Of a DNA stretch of 21,138 nt, positions 1,018 to 15,839 are shown piece by piece. Position numbers and translations under genes: made by a program. The stretch covers positions 1 to 21,138 of the IMG/VR virus record IMGVR_UViG_3300047560_001263; one strand, 5' to 3'. The stretch is from a virus. Numbering within the stretch: the first letter of the stretch is position 1; the number at the start of each line of letters is the position of its first letter. Below the pieces are notes generated by a model that was not told where the DNA came from, searched no databases, and saw only the letters and a program-made list of their open reading frames with translations.

Positions 1018-1494
1018 TTAGTTCTTGCCCGCTATCTTTTCTTGTCCGCGGGTCCAGGCTGCTACGCCGAGGATGGCGCCGAAGGCCATGTGAATGAGGC
1101 CTCCGTTGTCCAGTGTAATGGACTTCCAGGGTATGTACTGCATACCCTTGATGAACTGGGGCATGAACATCGCGATGATGGGGAATGCCACGAAGTCGCA
1201 GAAGCACATGAGCATGTACAGCCAACCCATGGCTGGTCGCCACATGGACTTCATCCAGGGCTCGTTCTCTTTGGCGTTCTGAGCCTCCCACTGCTGCTTC
1301 TCCAACTCGATCTTGGCCATCTGCGCTTCTGCTGACAGCTGCTGAGTAGCTGAAGCGGAAGATCCGCCCACCGAGACTGCTACGTAGGGTGCAGATTGGT
1401 TGATGTTGGCAGCTGCGCCCTTGGTGGCTGGTGGGATCTCGTCCATTGCCGGCTTGGCTACCGGTTCTTCTTCTTGTGTACCGAACTTGGGCAT
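1018..1494 (-). CDS. Holin, GTA/3TM-type small membrane protein
   Basis: Probable holin that permeabilises the inner membrane and releases the endolysin encoded just upstream. The 158-residue protein has a low-complexity Ala/Pro/Glu N-terminus (1-50), a charged helix with EKQQWEAQNAKENEPW (65-80), then the WRPAMGW signature (85-91), which is typical of the 3TM holin family found in gene transfer agents and alphaproteobacterial phages. One clear hydrophobic segment spans about 88-112 and a second 132-149; a third is not obvious. The start ATG at 1494 has GGAGG overlapping the last endolysin codons, with five bases of spacing, so the two genes are translated together. Its position after a GH19 endolysin supports the call. 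It could alternatively be a membrane protein of other function. Confidence 0.8.
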   Translation of the reverse strand: MPKFGTQEEEPVAKPAMDEIPPATKGAAANINQSAPYVAVSVGGSSASATQQLSAEAQMAKIELEKQQWEAQNAKENEPWMKSMWRPAMGWLYMLMCFCDFVAFPIIAMFMPQFIKGMQYIPWKSITLDNGGLIHMAFGAILGVAAWTRGQEKIAGKN

Positions 1495-1495
1495 A

Positions 1496-2116
1496 TTATC
1501 CTCCGAATATCTCTAGTGCTGCCTCGTAGTGTTCTTGTCTGTCTTTGAGGCCGATGGTACCGCCGTTGATCTTCTTAGTGACTGTGACGACGTCTCCCTT
1601 GTCCGCCCACTGGTTCAACTCGCGAGAGTCCCAGAACCAGCCAGCAGACCACGCGGCGCCTTCCTCGTCCTTCAACCACTCGGTGGCCTCTTCCAATGCC
1701 ATGTTCATGTCAGCGGCAAAGGCTGCGTAGTTGGACTTACCGGTCAACTGGATCAGACCGCGACCGCAATAACGATAACCATCTCCACTAGCCTCGTCCC
1801 CGTTACCCATACGATTAGAATAGACTCTGTTAGCGATCTTCTCAGGGTTACGAGCATAAGCCGACGTATCTACTCCGCGAAAGTACTTCGGGAATATGAC
1901 TTTCAGCCTATCGGCCGAGTACATAAGATTCTCTTTGATGGTCCTCAATCCACCAGACTCATGCCCGACCTGAGCCAGAAACATGGATATACGCTGGGGA
2001 TTGTTTATCTCGTAGAACTCCATCACTTCATTCAATGGATCTACGTATCTCTGAATCACTTCCTCGTCAGTGTCTTCAAAGAACTCATTCAGTTGTTCTG
2101 AGGTTACTAATGGCAT
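1496..2116 (-). CDS. Endolysin, glycoside hydrolase family 19
   Basis: Cell-wall hydrolase for host lysis, acting on the glycan strands of peptidoglycan. The 206-residue, single-domain protein shows the phage GH19 pattern: FLAQVGHESGG (46-56), ENLMYSADRL (62-71), YRYCGRGLIQLTG (114-126) and a helical C-terminus ending in LKDRQEHYEAALEIF. The probable catalytic acids are Glu53 and Glu62, nine residues apart as in known phage GH19 endolysins. There is no signal peptide, so export must depend on a holin, and the holin gene follows after one base. The ATG at 2116 is preferred over an in-frame ATG at 2122, because AGGAG (2123-2127) abuts the latter but is six bases from the former. A hairpin lies on the ribosome binding site and a late promoter box lies upstream. 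Confidence 0.93.
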   Translation of the reverse strand: MPLVTSEQLNEFFEDTDEEVIQRYVDPLNEVMEFYEINNPQRISMFLAQVGHESGGLRTIKENLMYSADRLKVIFPKYFRGVDTSAYARNPEKIANRVYSNRMGNGDEASGDGYRYCGRGLIQLTGKSNYAAFAADMNMALEEATEWLKDEEGAAWSAGWFWDSRELNQWADKGDVVTVTKKINGGTIGLKDRQEHYEAALEIFGG

Positions 2117-2125
2117 ACACATCTC

Positions 2126-2229: not shown

Positions 2230-4722
2230 TCAGTTCGTAGCGGCAGCCATCTGACCCAGCATCTCCACTGAGGACTGACTCTGCTTCTGTGGCTTAGCTG
2301 AGGGAGCTGCGGCAGCCCTCGCCTTCGCTTCTGACTTCTGTTTTGGCTTAGGAGCGGGAGCTGACTCTCTCTGAGGAGGGGATGAGGGAACCAACTGATC
2401 TATGGCTGCGCCGGCTACACCAGTGGCTGCCTGTACAGCGGCGCCACCAGGGATCATACCGAGGGAAGACTTCATCGCTTCCTTGGCATTGCCCTGAGAT
2501 AGGTGATAGGCAGTCTCAGCGCCTGAGATGACCTGACCTGCAACGGGAACGAATCCAGCGCCGAACTTGAGAGCGGAGAAAGCAGTCCCTAGCATAGACG
2601 ACTCTTCCTGCTTAGGAGCTTCGACCTTCTGAGCGGACTTAGTGCCCTTCGCGAACTGTGGTACGAGGGGCTTCAGTGTGCCCTTGACTCTAGCTTCTTC
2701 CGCTGCCTTCTTCTGCTGTTCGTACAGCCTCTGCTTCTCTTCTAGGACGTTGCGCCACTCGTACTGGTCTGCTGCCCTACGAGATGATGCTGCTAGTGCT
2801 GCTTGTTCTGGAGAGACTCTGGCTGACTTACCACCGCGCTCTTCTAGACCGATGGAAGTCTCTGCGCCCAACATTCTTCTGTTGATGAGCTCGCCGCCGG
2901 AGTACTGAGTTCCGGTATTCTTAGCATGCTCTCTGGCCAGGTACCTTTCCTTGTTGAACTGATCTCTCTGAGAGTCCGACATAGCTGACCAGTCGATGCC
3001 TGTCTCTGCTAAGGCTTTCTCTGACTCCGACATACCAGTGTAGAGGCCACCCGTCTCACCAAGGCCGCTGTCTTCCTTCATCATCCTCTGCAGGTTGCTG
3101 AAGATCTTCTGATGAGCAGGATCTACGCTACCTAACTGACCCTTGCTGATGGCTTCAAGTACTTCAGGAGTGTTGTACCCGTACTCGTTCTGTACGTTCT
3201 TCATCATCTGATCAGTTATCTTCTTGGTCTGACCAGCCGGGACTACCGTGTCGCCCTGATTGAGTACAGTCATATGAGCTGATGGTCCGGACATGCGCAC
3301 GCCGTCCTTACCCATGATCAGTTCTGGACCCTCTTCGCCGACGATGGCAGGACCAGTGTTCGGTACGTAGTCAGATCCTTCCGCGTACTGAGGAGGCATC
3401 ATAAGACTAGGGTTGCCGCCCTCGTTGCGACCCATGGAGAAGTGCATCGTGTCGACCGAGCTCTTCCAGTTTCCACCCCATCCTAGTCCGTACTTAGCCG
3501 CCATAGCAGCGATTCCGTCTGGAAGGTTGTCCTTGCCGTAGCCGAACGGATACTTCGGATTCTTGTACTGGCGAGCATCCGCATTGGTTGCCCAGTGACG
3601 TGGTATTCCCTGAGCGTCCATCTTGAACATCGGGTTGTCGTCGGGATTGATGTCGATCGCCATAGCCTTGCCGTGCCACATAGCTGAGGGACGATAGCCG
3701 CCGATCGCTTTGATCTGATAGCCGGAAGACTCGAGCTCACTGACGAATCCCTGGAAGTTTCCTGCATACTCCTTCGCTACCTGATACGACTTACCAGCAC
3801 GTGTCTTCAGAGTAGCTATGTTTCCGGTGATCGTTGGTGCTTGTCCACCAGGACCTGGCGCTGCTGGAGGAGCCGTTCCGGGAGCGCCACCGGGAGCTGC
3901 GCCTCCGGGAGGACGAGTAGATCCCTCGTTGAGCTTCTTCAGAGACTCCGCGTCTATCTCTACTTCGCCGGCAGTGATCTCCATCTGCTGCGAGTTGTAG
4001 ATGAGCTCGTCTGAGGTGAAGTTGATCTCTTCGTCGCCTACAGGACCCTCTTCTTCTGGATAAGCCGCGTCGCCCGCTGACATGGGAGCTCCGGCTACTT
4101 GCTGACCGCCCTCTGCTGCAGACTTCCTTCTGGCGATCTCTTCGTCAGACGGCTTGTTGAAAGGGTTTAACCACTCTCCCCATGTCTGGTACTTGTTGGC
4201 GTCTTCTATGCTGGCTACTAGTCCTGCACGAGCTTCTGGAGAAGCGTTCGATTCATCCAGCGGATCTAGCTTAGCTATCTTGCTGATGCCGTAAGCGGAA
4301 GCCACAGACCAAAGCAATGGAGCTGCGAAGCCCTTCGGCAGGTAGTCTAACAGATCTAGGAGAGAAGACGGGTCCATTCCACCGCCTCCGTCGCTACTGG
4401 TAGCTGGTCCGCTTCCGAGTCCCTTCTGATCTAGCTTCTGATAGATCTTCTGCAGGACAGCGTTCTGCTGGTACTTAGCTTCTATGGACTGCGCTAGAAT
4501 CGTGTTCTGAGCGTTGGTCTCGTTGGTCAGCTTGTTGATGGAAGCCACCAAGGGATTGTCGTCGTTCTCGTCTTCGTCTCTGGTACCGATGGCAGACTGC
4601 GCGTCTTTGCTGACCGCTGAGTACACCGAGGGAAACAACGCTGAGAGAGCTGTCTGACCGACCGCTTTACCGGCGCTCTTAGCTGCTGAACCCACGTCTT
4701 GAAGGAGAGTCGTCTTGGCCAT
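2230..4722 (-). CDS. Large tail/virion protein with M15 D,D-peptidase domain
   Basis: Probable structural tail protein of 830 residues with a peptidoglycan endopeptidase domain. Order: an N-terminal module containing GQTALSALFPSVY (22-34) that is shared with the upstream gene; an Asn/Gln-rich helical segment (60-100); a Gly linker; a hydrophobic stretch (120-150); a Pro/Gly-rich linker (268-298); an M15 peptidase domain (about 300-432); then GPAIVGEEGPELIMG (457-471), a motif common in tape-measure-type proteins; charged helices (580-690); a hydrophobic region (710-778); and a Lys/Ala/Pro-rich tail. The zinc site is visible as HGKAMAID (H350, D357) and DTMH (catalytic D424, H427). Its start overlaps the previous stop as TGATG and lacks its own Shine-Dalgarno, so translation is coupled. 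I infer wall penetration during infection. It may also contribute to tail length or hub assembly. Confidence 0.8.
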   Translation of the reverse strand: MAKTTLLQDVGSAAKSAGKAVGQTALSALFPSVYSAVSKDAQSAIGTRDEDENDDNPLVASINKLTNETNAQNTILAQSIEAKYQQNAVLQKIYQKLDQKGLGSGPATSSDGGGGMDPSSLLDLLDYLPKGFAAPLLWSVASAYGISKIAKLDPLDESNASPEARAGLVASIEDANKYQTWGEWLNPFNKPSDEEIARRKSAAEGGQQVAGAPMSAGDAAYPEEEGPVGDEEINFTSDELIYNSQQMEITAGEVEIDAESLKKLNEGSTRPPGGAAPGGAPGTAPPAAPGPGGQAPTITGNIATLKTRAGKSYQVAKEYAGNFQGFVSELESSGYQIKAIGGYRPSAMWHGKAMAIDINPDDNPMFKMDAQGIPRHWATNADARQYKNPKYPFGYGKDNLPDGIAAMAAKYGLGWGGNWKSSVDTMHFSMGRNEGGNPSLMMPPQYAEGSDYVPNTGPAIVGEEGPELIMGKDGVRMSGPSAHMTVLNQGDTVVPAGQTKKITDQMMKNVQNEYGYNTPEVLEAISKGQLGSVDPAHQKIFSNLQRMMKEDSGLGETGGLYTGMSESEKALAETGIDWSAMSDSQRDQFNKERYLAREHAKNTGTQYSGGELINRRMLGAETSIGLEERGGKSARVSPEQAALAASSRRAADQYEWRNVLEEKQRLYEQQKKAAEEARVKGTLKPLVPQFAKGTKSAQKVEAPKQEESSMLGTAFSALKFGAGFVPVAGQVISGAETAYHLSQGNAKEAMKSSLGMIPGGAAVQAATGVAGAAIDQLVPSSPPQRESAPAPKPKQKSEAKARAAAAPSAKPQKQSQSSVEMLGQMAAATN

Positions 4723-7187
4723 CAGGAGTTACTCATTGGGAGCGCCGCTCCGTTGTTGTTGTTCTTGAACAGGTACGGATAGAACTTGTTGAAGTCGCCC
4801 ACGTCAGGAGACTTAGTATCTACGCAGAGCTCGTCCTGTGCTCCCTTGCCGCCGGACTCCGTTCCCAAGTAAGCGTCCACACCGTTCGATCCCTGTGGTT
4901 CTCTGAGCAAGCTGTCCTGAGAAGGTCCTCCGCCGACTTCTCCGTAGGAACCGGTCGATCCAGAAGCGAACTCGTCTGGAGTCCTTGACAGGTTCTCCAT
5001 CATCTCTGCCGATCTGCCAGCCACAGATCCCGTCTGCGCCTTGCCGGAAGAGATGAGTCTGTCTATAGCCGCGTTGGTCTCTTCTGGCATAGAAGGAATC
5101 GAGTCAGGAGATCCCTGCACCATAGCTTTCTTCTGCATAGCTGCGATGTCTGCCTTCATGCCCAGCACGTCGCCGACCTTGTTTCCATAGGGTACTACCG
5201 GAGCAGCGCCCATTTCCAGTGCATGGAACTCGCCGGCGTCCGCTTCTGACTTCTTGATCGATGGCATGCCGGTCAAGCTGGCCGCTTCGGTCTCCGCGAT
5301 CTCTCTCATGGCTTGCTGTTGCGCCGCTTCTTCTCTGAGCTTGGCTACTCCTTCCATGTGAGACGGAGTTACCTTGCCGGCCGCCTTCAGTCTGTCTATG
5401 GCGTCGTAAGCAGCTGACTGGTCTACGTTCGCTAGAGTCGGGTCGCCAGATGGAGTAAGCTTCGCTCCTCCCATCGGCGTTCCAGAAAGCATTCCGCCGA
5501 GGTCTCCGGGAGCTACTGCAGAGGCCTTTACTTGCTTCACTCCGCCAGAAGCAGCTGCCGCTGGAGTAGTAGCCGCTGGAACAGCTTGATTGGATGGAGC
5601 AGCCTGCTGACCGCCAGCTGCCTGCTTTCCGTTGAATACCTTCATCCAGTCCGCTGCGTAGGCATTGACCGTAGCTGCCGAGACGTCGTTGCTCTGACCC
5701 CTGATGTTGCCGGTATACCAAGCTACAGGGATGCGAGACACGTCGCCGTTGGCCTGCTTCAGGAACTTCTCTGCATGAGACCTAGCTACCGCTCTCTGTA
5801 CGTCGTACGGAGCTGACATGGCTGTAGGGTACTGAGACACGTCTATGCCCGCAGCTGCAGCCGCTCCCTTCCATGTGGAGTTGGTGAACTGAAAGTAGCC
5901 GGAAGCTGAGCTGCTCGGGTTCTTGATGTTCTGTCCGCGAGACTCCTTGAACATGATCGTGTCGAGGATGGTGTCGATCTGAGAGCCGCCCGATCCGTAC
6001 TGCCTCTCTCCGCCGCTTCCCTGACCGACGTAACCCGACTGCTGAAAAGATCCCGCTCTCTGTACGTCCGCCGCTACCGACTCTGCCGTCTGTGGCTTGC
6101 CGTCGAAGCCCTTGAAGGCTCCCTTTCCTGCGGGCGTCTCTCCGAATGCAGGCGTCTCCGTCTTCTCTTCGAACTTACCCTGAGGAGTGGTAGTCGTGCC
6201 GCTGCCGCCCGTTCCTCCGCCGGTACCGCCTCCAGTGCCTCCGCCAGTTCCTCCGGGAGACTCGTTAGCTGGAGCGGAATCTAGTCCGCCGCCCATTCCG
6301 CCCGACTGCTGGCTAGCTCCGAGTACGGTCAGCGTCAGCTTGTCTACGTTGAACTTCAGCAGTCTGGAAGTGTAGGTGATCTTGTCTGCCATGAAGTCCA
6401 GGACGCGTCTGCCGTCGCCACCCTTGCCCCTAGCTCTTCTGATAGCTTCCGTCTCCGCGCCTTCAGCCACTGACCCATCATTGGATCCCATCATGTAGCC
6501 GATGCCGCCGCCAGCTAACAGACCGCCGAGCATGCCGAGCATGCCGAGCTTTCCCTTACCGCCCTTTGGTCCTGCAGGAGGTGGACCCTTCGGACCGGGG
6601 GCACCCCTGTTGATCCCTGGCAAGTCTACGTTCAGTCCGCCTCCGCCGCCGCTCTTGATGGCGTTCAGCGCGTTCAGTATCTGGTTGAGAGTGGTGTTGA
6701 TCTTCTGCTCTTGTACGAGAGACTGCTTGATCAGGGAAGTGTTGGTGTCGGTAGAGGACTTGATCGCGGCTATGGACAGCTTCAGGTCCGCCACGTCTCT
6801 CCTGCTCTGGTTCTCTCTGTTCTCTCTGGCTTCTTTGGTGCCGCGGGCCTTCTTACCCTTGTACAGACTAGGGAAGAGCGCTGACAGTGCCGTCTCTCCC
6901 ACCGCTCCGGCCGCTCTTCTGAGGATTCCTGGACCGGCTTCTTCTGGAAGCTCGGTCTCTACCTCTACTTTATCTGGAGCGGGTTCTGGTTCTGACTTGG
7001 CCTTCTCTACGTCCTCCACGACGTTGGCCTTGTGATTCTCCTTGAGGATCTCTGCTAACTGCTTGGGTACCGCGACTCCGTTGTAGTCTACGATGTTACC
7101 CTTGTCGTCTATGTAGTAGGCATCGCCCCAAGCGACGATGAAGAGGACGTGACCCTGAGCGTTCTTCTTCTTGTGTTTACCGGCCAT
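4722..7187 (-). CDS. Large tail/virion protein with lytic transglycosylase domain
   Basis: Probable structural tail protein of 821 residues with a glycan-cutting domain. Order: a small N-terminal domain (1-55, with HVLFIVAWGDAYYIDDKG); an acidic linker; a module with GETALSALFPSLY (97-109) shared with the next gene; a charged helix and coiled-coil-like segment (115-178); a poly-Gly linker; a hydrophobic glycine-rich segment (214-235); a Gly-Thr repeat linker (311-330); an SLT-type transglycosylase domain (about 402-520); then a long Ala/Ser-rich C-terminus. The catalytic Glu415 sits in FKESRG, followed by SASGYFQFTNSTW (427-439), as in SLT/lysozyme-like enzymes. It starts inside the frameshift extension of the gp26-like gene, where tape measure genes usually sit. 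A weak ribosome binding site suggests coupling. The exact place in the virion is unknown. Confidence 0.8.
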   Translation of the reverse strand: MAGKHKKKNAQGHVLFIVAWGDAYYIDDKGNIVDYNGVAVPKQLAEILKENHKANVVEDVEKAKSEPEPAPDKVEVETELPEEAGPGILRRAAGAVGETALSALFPSLYKGKKARGTKEARENRENQSRRDVADLKLSIAAIKSSTDTNTSLIKQSLVQEQKINTTLNQILNALNAIKSGGGGGLNVDLPGINRGAPGPKGPPPAGPKGGKGKLGMLGMLGGLLAGGGIGYMMGSNDGSVAEGAETEAIRRARGKGGDGRRVLDFMADKITYTSRLLKFNVDKLTLTVLGASQQSGGMGGGLDSAPANESPGGTGGGTGGGTGGGTGGSGTTTTPQGKFEEKTETPAFGETPAGKGAFKGFDGKPQTAESVAADVQRAGSFQQSGYVGQGSGGERQYGSGGSQIDTILDTIMFKESRGQNIKNPSSSASGYFQFTNSTWKGAAAAAGIDVSQYPTAMSAPYDVQRAVARSHAEKFLKQANGDVSRIPVAWYTGNIRGQSNDVSAATVNAYAADWMKVFNGKQAAGGQQAAPSNQAVPAATTPAAAASGGVKQVKASAVAPGDLGGMLSGTPMGGAKLTPSGDPTLANVDQSAAYDAIDRLKAAGKVTPSHMEGVAKLREEAAQQQAMREIAETEAASLTGMPSIKKSEADAGEFHALEMGAAPVVPYGNKVGDVLGMKADIAAMQKKAMVQGSPDSIPSMPEETNAAIDRLISSGKAQTGSVAGRSAEMMENLSRTPDEFASGSTGSYGEVGGGPSQDSLLREPQGSNGVDAYLGTESGGKGAQDELCVDTKSPDVGDFNKFYPYLFKNNNNGAALPMSNS
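6211..6255 (-). repeat. 12-bp tandem repeat encoding a Gly-Thr linker
   Basis: Units begin at 6211, 6223, 6235 and 6247 (last one partial); each minus-strand copy encodes Gly-Gly-Gly-Thr. Copies differ at third codon positions, so the repeat is kept for the protein. It forms a flexible linker before the transglycosylase domain of the 821-residue protein. Confidence 0.7.
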
Positions 7188-8054
7188 TCTTAGCTTCTTG
7201 ATCTTTTATGTGAGAGACTAACATGTCGACGTAGATGTCACGCTCGAACGGGATCAACTCCTCGATCTCGGTCATTGAGTATTTATGATGTTGGACCAGA
7301 GAAAAGACGGTCTTGTAGTAGTTCGCTAAGTTGTTGTGGCTTAGCGCAAGGTAAAAAAATCTGATAGCGTCTTCATCTCGATCGAGCGAGGGTTGCCCAG
7401 AGAGTTCTTGTACTCGATCTTGTAGTACAGAGACGGGACGTTCAACAGGAACTCCCTGACTCTATCGAAGGTCTTGATGTCCAGCAGCTCGACGAACTCC
7501 TGCAGCTCCGCATCCGAAAAGTCCTTGCCCTCGTACACCGAGTCCCCGTCGTACACCCGATCGATGCAGCGAGTCACCAGCTTGTAGAAGGTCTCGTCTT
7601 CCTTGGCAGACAAGAAGTCTTTGTCCGAGTACAAGCTAGCAGACGGGTACTTCAGGACGATGCCGCTCTTCTCCGTGATCTTGACCTTGTTCTCCGACTT
7701 CTCAGGGAACTTCACTTCCACGTTCTTGATGTTGATCTCGAAGTCGTACGTCTGGTCGTCCTCGTAGTCTCTATAGGAGACCTTGATCACGTCGCCTACC
7801 GACACCGCGCGAAGGTTGAGGAACAAGTACTCTAGTGCAAAGAGAGGGATAGCGTCGACGTTGAACGTGTTGTCCATGCAGCAGTTGTTCACCACCTGCC
7901 TGATAGCCTGAAGGATGTCCGTGGGTTCGTTGGACTCCTTGGCCATCAGGAGAAGCTTCTCCTCCTTGACCAGCATGGGTCTGAAGGTGTACTTGTCTTT
8001 GGAATTGGGGATCGCGAAAGTCACGATAGGATACTGAATCTTAGGAAGTGCCAT
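7177..8054 (-). CDS. Predicted -1 frameshift product of the hub chaperone gene
   Basis: If ribosomes slip back one base on the T7 run at 7359-7353, reading continues past the 0-frame stop (7343-7341) for 58 more codons to TAA at 7179-7177, giving a 292-residue protein. The extension follows DFF with YLALSHNNLANYYK, then VFSLVQHHKYS, MTEIEELIPFERDIYVDML and a charged end. It looks like genuine protein: hydrophobic spacing, no stops over 58 codons, and a PFExxxY pattern like the downstream part of frameshifted tail chaperones (lambda GT type). It has no convincing start or ribosome binding site of its own; the only ATG, at 7275, lacks a Shine-Dalgarno. The extension fills the whole gap to the next gene and overlaps its start. 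The minor long form would be made alongside the 237-residue form. This is prediction from sequence, not shown experimentally. Confidence 0.72.
7280..7287 (-). promoter_or_regulatory. Possible late promoter box before the transglycosylase gene
   Basis: The minus strand reads CATAAATA, seven of eight bases of TATAAATA, 93 bases before the start of the 821-residue protein. It lies inside the frameshift extension, where it codes HKY, so coding constraint alone could explain it. Confidence 0.35.
7324..7359 (-). promoter_or_regulatory. Programmed -1 ribosomal frameshift signal
   Basis: Slippery heptamer T TTT TTT at 7359-7353, aligned so that the two 0-frame codons are TTT TTT. A six-base spacer (ACCTTG, 7352-7347) follows, then a perfect hairpin: CGCTAAG (7346-7340), nine-base loop, CTTAGCG (7330-7324). 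The hairpin contains the 0-frame stop codon. Slip sequence, reading register and spacing all fit known -1 signals in phage tail genes. Confidence 0.75.
7341..8054 (-). CDS. 26: gp26-like baseplate hub assembly chaperone, 0-frame form
   Basis: T4 gp26-family baseplate hub protein, probably a chaperone for central hub or tape measure assembly. The 237 residues open with a beta-rich part and the family signature FRPMLVKEEKLLLMAKES (24-41), then the helical NxxxDIxxAIxxVxxxC region (42-58) and an IPLFALEYLFLNLRA helix (69-83). The rest is acidic and alternates short strands and helices. The ATG at 8054 follows GAGG with about six bases of spacing. The last codons are GAT TTT TTT ACC TTG CGC TAA, and the T run forms an ideal -1 slippery site. 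It lies between the tube-like protein gene (27-base gap) and the two large wall-hydrolase proteins. Confidence 0.85.
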   Translation of the reverse strand: MALPKIQYPIVTFAIPNSKDKYTFRPMLVKEEKLLLMAKESNEPTDILQAIRQVVNNCCMDNTFNVDAIPLFALEYLFLNLRAVSVGDVIKVSYRDYEDDQTYDFEINIKNVEVKFPEKSENKVKITEKSGIVLKYPSASLYSDKDFLSAKEDETFYKLVTRCIDRVYDGDSVYEGKDFSDAELQEFVELLDIKTFDRVREFLLNVPSLYYKIEYKNSLGNPRSIEMKTLSDFFTLR

Positions 8055-8081: not shown

Positions 8082-8768
8082 TTAGCCAAGGTCGCCGGGT
8101 GCAGATACTTCTATCGGTAGGATGCCAGTCGGAGCGTTGGGGTTCGCTAGACCGGGAATGTTGAGAGCCACGCGTGAGTTGTCTATCTGCCATTCCTTGA
8201 AAGTGAACGTGCCGGTCAGCTTCATCAGGTTGTTGTTGTCCGACCAAGAAACCGAGATGTCGTTCATGGAGATGGGGAACGCCTTGTACAGCCTGTACCT
8301 GATGGGCGCTCCGGCAGCGTTGTCGTACACGGTGATGTCCACGGTGGCAGAGTAGTTGTCCTTGTACTCGGCCGTGTAGAAGTCCCTGCCAAAGGTAGCA
8401 GTCGGAGCCACAGCTCCCGTCACCGAGAATATCGAGTTCAACCAACCGTACATGAACCTGTTGACCGAACCGTGCCTGTCACACAGGAAAGAAAGAGTTA
8501 TCTCGGTGTAGTTGCCAGAGAACGGCATCTTCTCGGTCACACCCAATCCGTAACGGTTCACGTCCTGAGTACGAAGAGCGAGTCCAGGAAGAGAAGCGCT
8601 CACACACCTTTCCCTCAACTCTCTAGTAACCTGCGCGAAGTTCATCTGACCCATGACGCTGGACGCAAAGCCAGCGTTGTCGAAGTTGATCGCTACCTCG
8701 TACTTGTTCGTCTGAATGAATCCAGACTGAGCGACCCTACCCTTGAACTGCGATACGTCGAATGCCAT
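8082..8768 (-). CDS. Tail-tube-family protein, gp54/gp19-like
   Basis: Structural protein of the T4 tail tube fold. The 228 residues include NKYEVAINFD (21-30), CVSASLPGL (55-63), the ITLSFLCDRHG segment (90-100) and the signature AFPISMNDISVSWSDNNNLMKL (163-184), followed by TGTFTFKEWQ, as in T4 gp19 and its paralogue gp54. The major tube protein gp19 usually lies beside the sheath and portal genes and is about 160 residues in T4. This longer copy sits beside gp26 and close to gp48, so I favour gp54, the tube initiator that works with gp48 at the baseplate. gp19 remains possible. The stop of the upstream gene is immediately before its ATG (TAA ATG), with a weak GGTAGGG site. Confidence 0.75.
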   Translation of the reverse strand: MAFDVSQFKGRVAQSGFIQTNKYEVAINFDNAGFASSVMGQMNFAQVTRELRERCVSASLPGLALRTQDVNRYGLGVTEKMPFSGNYTEITLSFLCDRHGSVNRFMYGWLNSIFSVTGAVAPTATFGRDFYTAEYKDNYSATVDITVYDNAAGAPIRYRLYKAFPISMNDISVSWSDNNNLMKLTGTFTFKEWQIDNSRVALNIPGLANPNAPTGILPIEVSAPGDLG

Positions 8769-11622: not shown

Positions 11623-12845
11623 TGCCTAGATTTAATCCCGGTGATGTGGCTGTAACTAAACTTTTGATAGTGTCGCCTAGGACTTCGACGTGGGACTTTA
11701 CAGTCAACTTTTTGTCTTGCACTATAACTGAGACAATCTTTACTCCTGGTGTTCAGGGAACTATAGAAGTCATCGACTACGACGATCTGTTAGGAAAGTT
11801 GAAGATCGCAGGTGACGAAGAAGTGTTGTTTAACATGCAAAAACCAAATGGTCTTGCACTGAAGTACAACTTTCATCTTAATTCAGTACAAGAAGTCGAA
11901 GTAGCTGGTACGTTGAAGGCAAAGATCTATAAGTTAGAAGTCATATCGCGTGAAGTGTTGAAGGGTCAAGCTGTATACGCTCAGAAGGGTTACAATCAAC
12001 CGATCTCTGAGATCGTTCAAGACATGTTTAAGAAGTTGGACTCTAAGTTGCCCATACAGGTCGAACAGACTAAGGGTAAGCGTAACTTCAAAGTCGTCAA
12101 TCAACCAGTGTTTCATGCTATCGAGACTCTTCGTAAAGAGAGCATATCTCAAAAGAACAAGACGTCTAACTACATGTTCTGGCAAACTTGGCGTGGATTC
12201 TATTTCAAGACATTAGAAGGAATGATGCAGGGCGGAGACGTCAAGCGTCTGAAGCAAGACATGACAGTTGGCTACTCTATCTATTCGGACGTAGACAGCT
12301 CTATCCTTGCATGGAAGGTCAATCAGACTATGGACGCGATCAAGCGTCTGCAAGCCGGTACACCTAATCAGAGAGTGACTACGTTCAATATCAATACGAA
12401 CCAGTTTCGCCGTAAAGACTTCAAAGACGTTAAGCCTATAACTGCTATGGGTGCAGGAGTAATCACTGCATTAGCTACTTTTAACGCTCTGTTTCCAAAA
12501 GCAAATCGTACTGTGTTCAGATACGTTAATCCGAATCCAGCACTAAATATAGAGAAGTCTCATGTACCGGAAACTATTCCGGACAAGATGATGAACTTAG
12601 CACAGATGCAAGAACAACAGCTTCATCTCACTACCATAGGTGATCCTGTACTCGAAGCTGGTAAGACAGTGTATTGTACTATACCAAAAGCTATAGCTAA
12701 AGCTGGTATGACTGAGTTAGATCCTGTAGCTAGTGGAAGATGGCTTATATCGAAAGTGGAACATAACATACGTAGACCCGATGTAAGACCGAGGTACATC
12801 TGTCACCTTGAATGTCTGAAGGGTGCGTATCAGGAGAGAATGTAA
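11622..12845 (+). CDS. 27: gp27-like baseplate hub protein
   Basis: Probable hub ring protein, equivalent to T4 gp27, on which the gp5 spike sits. The 407 residues show two tube-like beta domains at the N-terminus (MPRFNPGDVAVTKLLI; STWDFTVNFLSCTITETI; GVQGTIEVIDYDDLL), a KIYKLEVISREVLKGQAV segment, then ISEIVQDMFKKL and FHAIETLRKESIS helices, and a C-terminal beta region ending with RPRYICHLECLKGAYQERM. The pattern and length fit gp27 (391 in T4), and the next gene is the gp5 OB-fold. Sequence similarity to T4 gp27 itself is low by eye, so the call relies on fold pattern and order. Junction with gp5 is TAATG. Confidence 0.72.
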   Translation: MPRFNPGDVAVTKLLIVSPRTSTWDFTVNFLSCTITETIFTPGVQGTIEVIDYDDLLGKLKIAGDEEVLFNMQKPNGLALKYNFHLNSVQEVEVAGTLKAKIYKLEVISREVLKGQAVYAQKGYNQPISEIVQDMFKKLDSKLPIQVEQTKGKRNFKVVNQPVFHAIETLRKESISQKNKTSNYMFWQTWRGFYFKTLEGMMQGGDVKRLKQDMTVGYSIYSDVDSSILAWKVNQTMDAIKRLQAGTPNQRVTTFNINTNQFRRKDFKDVKPITAMGAGVITALATFNALFPKANRTVFRYVNPNPALNIEKSHVPETIPDKMMNLAQMQEQQLHLTTIGDPVLEAGKTVYCTIPKAIAKAGMTELDPVASGRWLISKVEHNIRRPDVRPRYICHLECLKGAYQERM

Positions 12846-13150
12846 TGTCAAGTCAACAGGGAAGCGGCTTCGGTCAGTTCTTCGTGGGTGAAGTGAGAGA
12901 CATAAGAGATCCGGATAGATCTGGTAAAGTGAAGATAATGGTGCACGGCTATCATAACGCTGGCGATGAAGATATTCCAGACAAAGAACTACCGTGGGCT
13001 CAATGCGTAATGAACAATTCACCGTCTTTAAATAAAGTTGGACAAACTAGTGACTATCTACCTGGAACTACAGTGATCGGCTTTTGGTTAGATCCTGAAA
13101 CGAAGCAGATGCCAGTCATACTTGGAAGTTTTCATAGAGCGGGTCTATAA
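12845..13150 (+). CDS. 5: gp5-like baseplate OB-fold protein lacking lysozyme
   Basis: A 101-residue protein equal to the N-terminal OB-fold of T4 gp5: FFVGEVRDIRDPDRSGKVKI (12-31), HGYHNAGDEDIPDKELPWAQ (34-53), YLPGTTVIGFWLD (71-83) and MPVILGSF (89-96). T4 gp5 continues with a lysozyme domain and a beta-helix; here the gene stops after the OB-fold. The ATG at 12845 is preferred over one at 12812 because AGGAG lies eight bases before it and it overlaps the previous stop. The missing lysozyme is probably replaced by the two wall-hydrolase tail proteins, and the missing beta-helix by the gene at 14838. Confidence 0.9.
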   Translation: MSSQQGSGFGQFFVGEVRDIRDPDRSGKVKIMVHGYHNAGDEDIPDKELPWAQCVMNNSPSLNKVGQTSDYLPGTTVIGFWLDPETKQMPVILGSFHRAGL

Positions 13151-14838
13151 TGGCGTTACCATCAGGAAAAGACATAGACGCTCAGTTAAAGAGCACCGTA
13201 ACGGACATAGAGAAGCCTACGATCGATACGTCGTATGGTTCTTATACTACTTTGGGTGCAAAGCCTTCAGATTTCAATCCTGGTCTCGTTCTTGGAAATG
13301 CACCTAATCAAGATAAGAATGCATTATTATTTCAACCTAAGCCGTTCTCACCAGAAGATTCTGGTAGAAACACCAAAGTAGCGGGCGAGGGTAAGCCAGA
13401 CGACACTGGTGATAATGCTCAGAAGAAAGCAAAAGACGAGAAGAAGACTCAGGTTCCAAAGAACTTGAAGCCTGATAATCCGACTGCTGCTTCTCAAGAC
13501 AAAGACAAGCCGATCCTCGAAGCGATCATGAGTGCCGATCCTGGTAACATCGTCGGTGCAGTTCAAAAAGCTTTGCAAGCGATGGTAATGCTTAAGATGA
13601 TGGATAAGCTCACGAGTCCAGCTGGCATAGCTGCTATGGCTGCCGGTGGTATGGGTGGTGCATTGGGTGCATTGTCTGGCATCATGGGTGGTCCGGGTTC
13701 TATGATGAACCTTATGGGTGCTGCGATGCCTGCACTTCAGGGCGCTCTTCCTCTTTCACAACTCGGTGCAGTAAATCTCGGCATAACAGGAATGCTTTCT
13801 GGTAATCCAGTCGGTGCATTGGCTGCTGATGCTGTACAGGCTGCAGCTTATACTGCTTCAGCTATCGCAGTAGCTAAAGCTGCTTCTACTCCATTAGGAC
13901 AAACGATCGCTACTGCTGCGATGCTTGGTGGACCTGCGCTTGGTCTTACACCAAACAGTCTTGCATATACTATCGCTTTGTCGACTCCCGGGACTGTGAT
14001 AAGAAAGTCTTCTTATGTAAACGGTATAGCTATTAACTCCACTTTGGAAGTTGTAGATCCGTTCATTCAAAACCAGTTGGGTGATATTCCACAGTTAGCG
14101 GGCGATGAACACGTTATCATAGCTCAAAACAGTATGAATCAGTTCAGAATGGGTATGGGTATTCCAGTTGTCAGACAACTGAATGCCGCCAACATCATCG
14201 GTGGTGTTATGGCAGACAGTCTCATCAATGGTATTACTAGTAATATTATCAATCCTGATCTTTCTAACGCAGCTGCAAACATCTTGACTGGTGCAGGCAT
14301 CGGCGCGCTTCTTGGAGGAGCTAAGGGAGCTATCGGTGGTGCATTACTCGGTGGCGTAACTGGAGGTGTAGGTGGAATCGTAGACGCTGGTCTTAACAGT
14401 CTTCTCGGTGGTGGACTGGGTGATCTTGGCGGAATGGTAGGAAAACTATTACCAGATATCGCCGGTGGTATAACTAACGTCATCGGACCACACTCTCAAC
14501 TCGGTAACTTAAATGTTGGCGCTATCGGTGGATTGATGAACGAGACTACTAAAGCTCTCTCACTCGCAAGTAAAGAGTTTAAGATCGCCAGCGTATTTGG
14601 ATCTAACGTAGCTGAACAAGTAGCAGACGTGCATGACTCTATGTTAGGTAACGTTCTTAAGAATGCCGTTGCAGGTGCCGCAGCTGGCGCTGCTATTGGA
14701 GCTGCTGCTTCTGCTTTAGCGCCGACTACACTTCGTACTGTAACTAACGGCGTAAGAATAACTGTTGGAGTTCCAATAACACCTCCAGCTATTGTGAGTC
14801 CGAACTACTTCTATTATAAAGATACTGGTATATTATAA
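13150..14838 (+). CDS. Glycine-zipper hub-associated structural protein
   Basis: Function not recognised. The 562 residues contain a hydrophilic, Lys/Asp-rich N-terminal third (1-125), a Gly/Ala/Met-rich hydrophobic region (155-265), a beta-like central domain (280-345), glycine-zipper stretches GAGIGALLGGAKGAIGG (381-397), LLGGVTGGVGG (399-409) and AAGAAIGAAASALA (511-524), and a short beta tail ending in YFYYKDTGIL. Such repeats occur in membrane-inserting proteins, so it may form or plug a channel in the spike region, or be a membrane-active part of DNA injection; this is inference. It lies between the gp5 OB-fold and the beta-helix spike gene with TAATG overlaps at both ends, so it is made together with hub parts. 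Confidence 0.7.
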   Translation: MALPSGKDIDAQLKSTVTDIEKPTIDTSYGSYTTLGAKPSDFNPGLVLGNAPNQDKNALLFQPKPFSPEDSGRNTKVAGEGKPDDTGDNAQKKAKDEKKTQVPKNLKPDNPTAASQDKDKPILEAIMSADPGNIVGAVQKALQAMVMLKMMDKLTSPAGIAAMAAGGMGGALGALSGIMGGPGSMMNLMGAAMPALQGALPLSQLGAVNLGITGMLSGNPVGALAADAVQAAAYTASAIAVAKAASTPLGQTIATAAMLGGPALGLTPNSLAYTIALSTPGTVIRKSSYVNGIAINSTLEVVDPFIQNQLGDIPQLAGDEHVIIAQNSMNQFRMGMGIPVVRQLNAANIIGGVMADSLINGITSNIINPDLSNAAANILTGAGIGALLGGAKGAIGGALLGGVTGGVGGIVDAGLNSLLGGGLGDLGGMVGKLLPDIAGGITNVIGPHSQLGNLNVGAIGGLMNETTKALSLASKEFKIASVFGSNVAEQVADVHDSMLGNVLKNAVAGAAAGAAIGAAASALAPTTLRTVTNGVRITVGVPITPPAIVSPNYFYYKDTGIL

Positions 14839-15839
14839 TGGCATATGAACCAACACAACGCGATTTAAACTTAGCTCAAGCTGCCGGTGTACCTCCAGGT
14901 AAAACTGTTGAGATCGCCGGTAATAAGTTTACTATGCCTGATAATGCAGCATCGAGTTCTTCAGCTAAAAAGAAAGTTGATAATAAGAGACTGGACGATC
15001 ATCCTAATTTAGGTGATCAATATCTTCTCAAAGTCGTATCAGACGCAGTTGGCAACTACTTCTTCCAGTCACGTGATCCTAAATCTCTTGCTACGATGAA
15101 AGCTACTGTCACTGAAGACGGTAAGTACTCTACTGAGATGATGGATAAGACTGGTACTAGAAATTCTGTCGACAGTAACGGGGTAAAGACTGCAGCTGCT
15201 AGTACTACGACTACTACTGCGGGTCATAACGACTCTGCTACTGGTGGCGGTGTACGTTCGAACGTTGGTAAGGGCAAAGATACACAGAACGGTGAAGCTG
15301 AGACTAAGTCTACTGACGGACCGAAGATCAATACTTCTAATCAGTCTAATCAAAACTATGGTCAGGGTGGTAATGGTCGACAAGTTATGGAAGGTGATCA
15401 GTCGATCGTAGTCAACAACGGTCTTCTAGCATACAAAGCTTCTAAGGGATTTAGTGTTAACTCAGACAAGTCCGTTCAGTTATTTTCACAAGCTGGCGAG
15501 TTCTCTATTAACGCTAAAGCCGGTAATATCGCTATGACTTCTACGAACGGTGAGATAACACTCAACGCTTCTAAGAAGATTACTTTACAAGTAGCCGATA
15601 ACAGGATCTCTATAACTCCCCAGGGAATAGCTATATTTAATGCTGCTACTGGTGGTTATCTTAACATAATTTCTAACGGCAGCTTAGTAGCTATCGGTAA
15701 GGGTTCAACTGTAGCATTCTGTGCTCCAAACTCTACAGCGTATCTATCTGGTAAAGCAGTCAGAACAAAATCTGATGATGGCACTAAGCTTGAGAATTCA
15801 AGCACTGTTCCTCCATCTGGTCAATTAGTAGTAGGATAA
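14838..15839 (+). CDS. Beta-helix spike protein, gp5 C-terminal-like
   Basis: Probable central spike. The 333 residues open with a globular part including KVVSDAVGNYFFQSRD (65-80) and TVTEDGKYSTEMMDKTGT (90-107), similar in pattern to the segment before the beta-helix in T4 gp5. A disordered Thr/Ser/Asn-rich linker follows (118-185), then short strands separated by Asn/Gly turns (186-300: QSIVVNNG, KGFSVNSDKS, GEFSINAKAG, GEITLNASKK, NRISITPQG), as expected of a triple-stranded beta-helix. The gp5 function of T4 appears split over the OB-fold gene and this one. A PAAR-type tip was not seen. Next gene (gp25) starts four bases after the stop. Confidence 0.7.
   Translation: MAYEPTQRDLNLAQAAGVPPGKTVEIAGNKFTMPDNAASSSSAKKKVDNKRLDDHPNLGDQYLLKVVSDAVGNYFFQSRDPKSLATMKATVTEDGKYSTEMMDKTGTRNSVDSNGVKTAAASTTTTTAGHNDSATGGGVRSNVGKGKDTQNGEAETKSTDGPKINTSNQSNQNYGQGGNGRQVMEGDQSIVVNNGLLAYKASKGFSVNSDKSVQLFSQAGEFSINAKAGNIAMTSTNGEITLNASKKITLQVADNRISITPQGIAIFNAATGGYLNIISNGSLVAIGKGSTVAFCAPNSTAYLSGKAVRTKSDDGTKLENSSTVPPSGQLVVG

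Follow-up and report, generated by a model that had tools for sequence, protein, structure and literature searches.

A probable -1 frameshift at the end of a gp26-like tail assembly chaperone gene in an uncultured T4-like phage, and candidate RNA signals among its relatives

Introduction

Two bodies of work provide the setting for the locus described here. In phage lambda, the tail assembly chaperones gpG and gpGT are a short form and a long form made by a -1 frameshift (Levin, 1993; Xu, 2004; reviewed in PMC5009743). Nearer to our subject, tail assembly chaperone genes in T4-like phages were identified by Vladimirov, Gautam and Davidson (Virology 2022, 566:9-15, a study used here in the form in which PMC10885494 and PMC12846349 cite it), and poly-T runs are recognised as signals for -1 frameshifting in the TAC-N genes of T4-like phages (the Adele paper, PMC12846349, citing Vladimirov et al., 2022). 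Frameshifting does not extend to every such phage: some have one short gene and one fused long gene in its place (PRFect; PMC10885494).

The first-pass annotation of the DNA analysed here proposed a -1 frameshift at the end of a gp26-like gene, and knew of no account of such an arrangement for the T4 gp26 family. The arrangement had, however, already been reported (Vladimirov et al., 2022, per PMC10885494 and PMC12846349). Since both the poly-T signals and the T4-like chaperone genes are on record, the mechanism is a known one in the gp26/gp51 family, and the present locus is a further example of it.

The gp26-like gene and its surroundings

The window (the whole stretch of DNA analysed, 21138 bases from an uncultured virus record) comes from a T4-like phage, since it contains homologues of gp32, gp48, gp53, gp25 and gp6 in addition to a gene of the PF12322 family. 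This last, the gp26-like gene (7341-8054, minus strand; 237 amino acids), matches Pfam PF12322 (T4_baseplate, E 1.9e-52), its whole-protein score of 178.5 bits lying above the gathering cut-off of 24.5, and PHROG 150 (baseplate hub, E 1.3e-55). It is preceded by a gene for a tail-tube-like protein of 228 amino acids (8082-8768, minus strand; PF23849, Phage_TTP_2, E 2.8e-12) and followed by a gene for a protein of 821 amino acids (4722-7187, minus strand; ATG at 7187).

In relatives, genes in the area of the 821-amino-acid gene are annotated as encoding the tape measure protein, and the position of the gene in the window fits this. Judged by position only, it sits where a tape measure protein gene would be expected; phmmer comparison with annotated tape measure proteins gave no match, either for this protein or for an 830-amino-acid protein encoded at 2230-4722 (minus strand). 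The tape measure protein could be either of the two. They have in common an N-terminal TALSALFPS-Y motif; the 830-amino-acid protein contains a domain of the M15 peptidases (PF13539, E 5e-13), and the 821-amino-acid protein has a weak match to transglycosylases. Elsewhere in the window, plus-strand genes at 12812-15839 encode an OB-fold-like protein, a 562-amino-acid protein and a DUF2345 spike-like protein, and it looks as if the functions of T4 gp5 are split over these three genes. At 1018-2122 (minus strand), a GTA-type holin (PF11351) adjoins a weakly matching GH19-like endolysin.

The slip site

The gp26-like gene ends GAT TTT TTT ACC TTG CGC TAA. The GAT codon is at 7361-7359, the run of seven Ts at 7359-7353 (minus strand) forms an in-register slippery heptamer, T TTT TTT, and the zero-frame stop, TAA, lies three codons after the heptamer (7343-7341). 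In terms of the X XXY YYZ criterion, both tRNAs can re-pair after a slip, here on T TTT TTT and in the relatives on T TTT TTC or T TTT TTT.

Relatives were gathered by similarity to the gp26 protein, and thus independently of the slip site. Among those found in the first round, all 32 that were complete (42-93% identity) had GAT TTT TTT and a conserved -1 extension. Extended to further viral contigs and annotated phages, the collection came to 275 distinct loci, and in 269 of these T TTT TTY stood in register at the corresponding point (the loci are related, and the counts are therefore non-independent). In most relatives the heptamer consists of six Ts and then a C (T TTT TTC), and the zero-frame stop follows mostly after zero to three codons, in some after six to eight. 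The comparison of homologues that the first-pass annotation had put forward as a check thus found the slippery run conserved, and reading of the sequence confirmed to the base the coordinates that had been assigned to the GAT codon, the T run, the stop, the downstream hairpin discussed below and the -1 frame.

Four of the six exceptions (L044, L045, L047 and L048) are three Ackermannviridae and the Vibrio phage K444; of the other two loci, L195 has T TTT TTA at the site, and L138 an early stop at another point in its gene. In the Vibrio phage and the Ackermannviridae, gp26 ends with N NTT TTY sites and not T TTT TTY, and the -1 extension is kept, mostly with an MPWH-like motif. At this place phiMAM1 has G GTT TTC, the sequence of the T7 gene 10 frameshift site.

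Grouping at 80% identity gave 165 cluster representatives. All have T as the last base of the codon that precedes the Phe-Phe pair, although the amino acid that this codon specifies varies (Asp, Ser, Asn, Ala and others). Of the 149 Phe-Phe pairs at other places in these genes, only 6 take the heptamer form, TTT making up 67% of Phe codons. On these counts, the conservation of T TTT TTY exceeds what chance would be expected to give. Together with a homologous -1 extension, T TTT TTY is found in cyanophages, in Pelagibacter and Methylophilales phages, and in phages of Caulobacter, Sinorhizobium, Stenotrophomonas, Aeromonas and Citrobacter.

The -1 extension and its relation to gp51

The -1 frame leading on from the heptamer (TAC-C; 7177-7353, minus strand) comprises 58 codons and a stop, TAA, at 7179-7177, and overlaps the start of the 821-amino-acid gene; joined to gp26, it gives a long form of 292 amino acids. 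The extension matches PHROG 634 (gp51, the baseplate hub assembly catalyst; E 1e-24) and can be aligned to the C-terminal end of T4 gp51. In all complete loci except L138 it stays open for 152-215 nt past the stop, the +1 frame usually being shut within 40 nt. Differences at -1 codon positions 1, 2 and 3 number 0, 0 and 3 from the closest relative (L001), and 7, 3 and 35 from the relative L002; mean entropy at the same positions among 39 sequences is 0.86, 0.49 and 1.35. This bias by codon position indicates that selection is acting along the -1 frame in the extension.

In T4 itself, gp26 (208 amino acids) and gp51 (249 amino acids) both match PF12322, and their genes are on opposite strands. 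When they are aligned with the fused products of the relatives, T4 gp26 stops just past the Phe-Phe pair, and T4 gp51 runs in frame through the region that is -1-encoded elsewhere. The end of T4 gene 26 reads GAG TTC TTT GAG, the slippery heptamer having been lost. From the end of gp26 and the in-frame gp51, the short and long forms of T4 are to be seen as the products of two separate genes, and T4 would seem to be the two-gene version of what in most other T4-like phages is probably a single gene with a slip. The original study of these chaperones reportedly found the frameshift conserved in several T4-like groups, T4 using genes 26 and 51.

An earlier comparison of T4-like genomes found that the cyanophage gp51 is missing its first 200 residues and that Aeromonas phage Aeh1 is without gp51 (Sullivan et al., 2010; PMC3037559). 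The first of these findings can be explained because the missing part is gp26, to which the extension would be joined by frameshifting. In Aeh1 (L043; gp26 at 2480-3256 and downstream), gp51 is present as a -1 extension of gp26, and its apparent absence would be due to this change of frame.

The short form was modelled with AlphaFold from 48 aligned sequences (mean pLDDT 90.7). Residues 1-86 of the model match 2ob9, the tail assembly chaperone of HK97, over 84 residues (Z 7.3, rmsd 3.7); the best structures are 3fgx (8.3), 2ob9 and 3klu (each 7.3) and 5ir0 (5.2), the next being at 3.7. Foldseek by itself gave no significant match to the model in the PDB, and the gp26 profile found nothing relevant among PDB sequences, while the named top matches in a viral structure library were other baseplate hub (gp26-type) proteins. 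A chaperone-like fold is thus predicted, with moderate confidence, for the N-terminal domain (about residues 1-87).

Candidate stimulatory signals

How might a slip at this heptamer be stimulated? The window has a local 7-bp hairpin (7324-7346, minus strand), in which CGCTAAG (7346-7340) and CTTAGCG (7330-7324) pair perfectly across a 9-nt loop, after a spacer of six bases (7352-7347); it folds at -8.2 kcal/mol (z -3.4). The first-pass annotation had drawn attention to this hairpin around the stop, which proved real to the base and is common to the closest relative (L001, 93% identity). It is not, however, conserved in the group to which the window belongs: its pairs are kept in 57% of cells across 39 group representatives. 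Shuffles did equally well or better, and the local hairpin was ruled out as a conserved stimulator.

Structure downstream of the heptamer exceeds that in upstream control windows (mean z -1.83 vs 0.01 and -0.41). Single-sequence folding and a scan of pair registers, tested on the same 39 sequences, revealed a long-range stem of nine pairs in the window's group, in which offsets 7-15 after the heptamer pair with offsets 54-62 and which holds the zero-frame stop. Its place in the window is 7290-7345 (minus strand), with a 5' arm at 7345-7337, including the stop, and a 3' arm at 7298-7290. Among the 39 sequences, 89.2% of cells in this stem pair, compared with 20-37% when the register is slid, and there are 15 double changes, compared with 4.2 in shuffles (0 of 500). 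On the protein tree, at least four changes on supported branches are required to account for the A-U state of one of the pairs. Paired comparisons on the tree point in the same direction for two pairs, with 3.6 to 0 for columns 23-68 and 5.0 to 0 for columns 19-72, and median p values of 0.125 and 0.0625; the covariation is therefore consistent, but not individually significant once kinship is corrected for. RNAalifold found no consensus structure for the whole set of 39, and Rfam no match to the window. As far as comparison of these sequences goes, the conserved structure predicted for the window's group is the long-range stem and not the local hairpin. In the window's own copy of the stem three of the nine pairs are broken, and here the local hairpin may have taken over from it. 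A single stem common to all T4-like phages was ruled out, since the T TTT TTC group does not keep the register.

In a second group, mainly marine, a Shine-Dalgarno-like element (AGGA, GGAG or GAGG) lies 8-18 nt upstream of the heptamer. Its frequency is 48% overall and 62% with T TTT TTC, as against 10% in the T7 group to which the window belongs, control positions giving 5%, and Glu at the position of the element is encoded by GAG in 70% of cases, compared with 29% elsewhere. The spacing of the element resembles that of the dnaX stimulator. No inverse relation between the element and local structure was seen. A limited search of the open-access literature found no description of either the stem or the element. 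Conceivably, each clade drives the T4-like gp26/gp51 frameshift with an undescribed RNA signal of its own (a long-range 9-bp stem holding the stop in the window's group, a dnaX-like upstream element in the mainly marine one), and these signals have been swapped while T TTT TTY remained fixed, an idea that we take seriously while stopping a little short of calling it probable. The conserved stem and the upstream element would provide two natural test cases for a bacterial -1 signal rebuilt around a fixed slip site.

Proposed expression of the locus and alternative explanations

The locus is very probably a tail assembly chaperone gene of a T4-like phage, with a short form and a -1 frameshifted long form. 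Both the frameshift and the lambda G/GT-like layout of short and long chaperones were part of the first-pass account, and both are supported by the heptamer, the conserved gp51-like extension, the usual absence of a start codon for the extension, and the fold. Most ribosomes would end at the TAA, giving the 237-amino-acid short form (gp26, TAC-N). Some would slip back one base at the T run, where both Phe tRNAs can re-pair with TTT, and would read 58 further codons to give the 292-amino-acid long form (TAC-NC), the counterpart of T4 gp51. Downstream RNA structure would presumably stimulate the slip, and both forms may act like lambda gpG and gpGT in loading the tape measure and tail tube proteins.

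From the sequences compared, we infer that the slippage takes place on the ribosome. If RNA polymerase were instead to slip on the seven Ts in a row, mixed mRNA would encode both forms, and such a shift in transcription would sit well with the rarity (10%) of the upstream element in the window's T7 group; but most relatives have only six Ts followed by a C, which is a poor substrate for polymerase slippage, and the invariant codon register and the covarying stem 7 nt downstream fit a ribosomal signal, so that we regard the transcriptional route as very unlikely. Slightly more improbable again is the reading adopted in the annotation of several cyanophages, by which the extension would be a small gene (gp51) in its own right, started independently of gp26. 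Annotated gp51 genes of 50-60 codons do begin just after gp26 in S-ShM2, S-PM2, DLP6 and others, and an ATG occurs within the first ten -1 codons in 44 of the 165 representatives, where a separate short gp51 would be possible, though not in the window. Against this, 89 of the 165 have no ATG, GTG or TTG within those ten codons; in the window the first ATG of the extension is that of the Met in SMTEIEE, more than 20 codons in, and a start there would lose the conserved HN and NYY part. Moreover, the annotated starts vary widely (60 codons in S-ShM2, about 30 in P-HM2 and ACG-2014a), gp51 is annotated in neither S-CAM1 nor S-BM3, and the homology extends upstream of the ATG into the heptamer. 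The single open frame of T4 gp51 might also suggest that the gene in the window is decayed or misassembled, with a frameshift error in what should be one frame; the chance of this is negligible, because the same frame relation is conserved across hundreds of independently sequenced relatives, isolates included.

If -1 slippage on the ribosome is indeed the means by which the long form arises, then frameshifting is how most T4-like phages, among them the abundant marine cyanophages, produce the chaperone pair. In public annotations gp51 either appears as a separate short gene, with starts that are inconsistent, or is missed; treating it as a frameshift product would correct hundreds of genomes.

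Comparison with known systems

The T4-like gp26/gp51 chaperones (Vladimirov et al., 2022, as cited in PMC10885494 and PMC12846349) belong to the same gene family as the gene in the window, which differs in coming from an uncultured T4-like phage and in its combination of T TTT TTT, a stop after three further codons and a local hairpin of its own. T4 genes 26 and 51 are alike in that both products belong to PF12322 and gp51 has the same C-terminal extension as in the window, but there the two forms come from two genes on opposite strands, with TTC TTT in gene 26 replacing the heptamer. With lambda gpG/gpGT the window has in common a short form, a predicted -1 long form, a stop just past the slip site and a tail-tube-like gene upstream; its short form is, however, longer, with a chaperone-like fold predicted only for about residues 1-87, and the comparison is one of layout. 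The slippery heptamer of lambda also differs from that of the window. In Vandenendeviridae and Andersonviridae, too, TAC-N has a -1 frameshift close to its end, at a motif rich in T, although there the motif is GTTTTT (PMC12846349); the comparison is one of frameshift position and motif.
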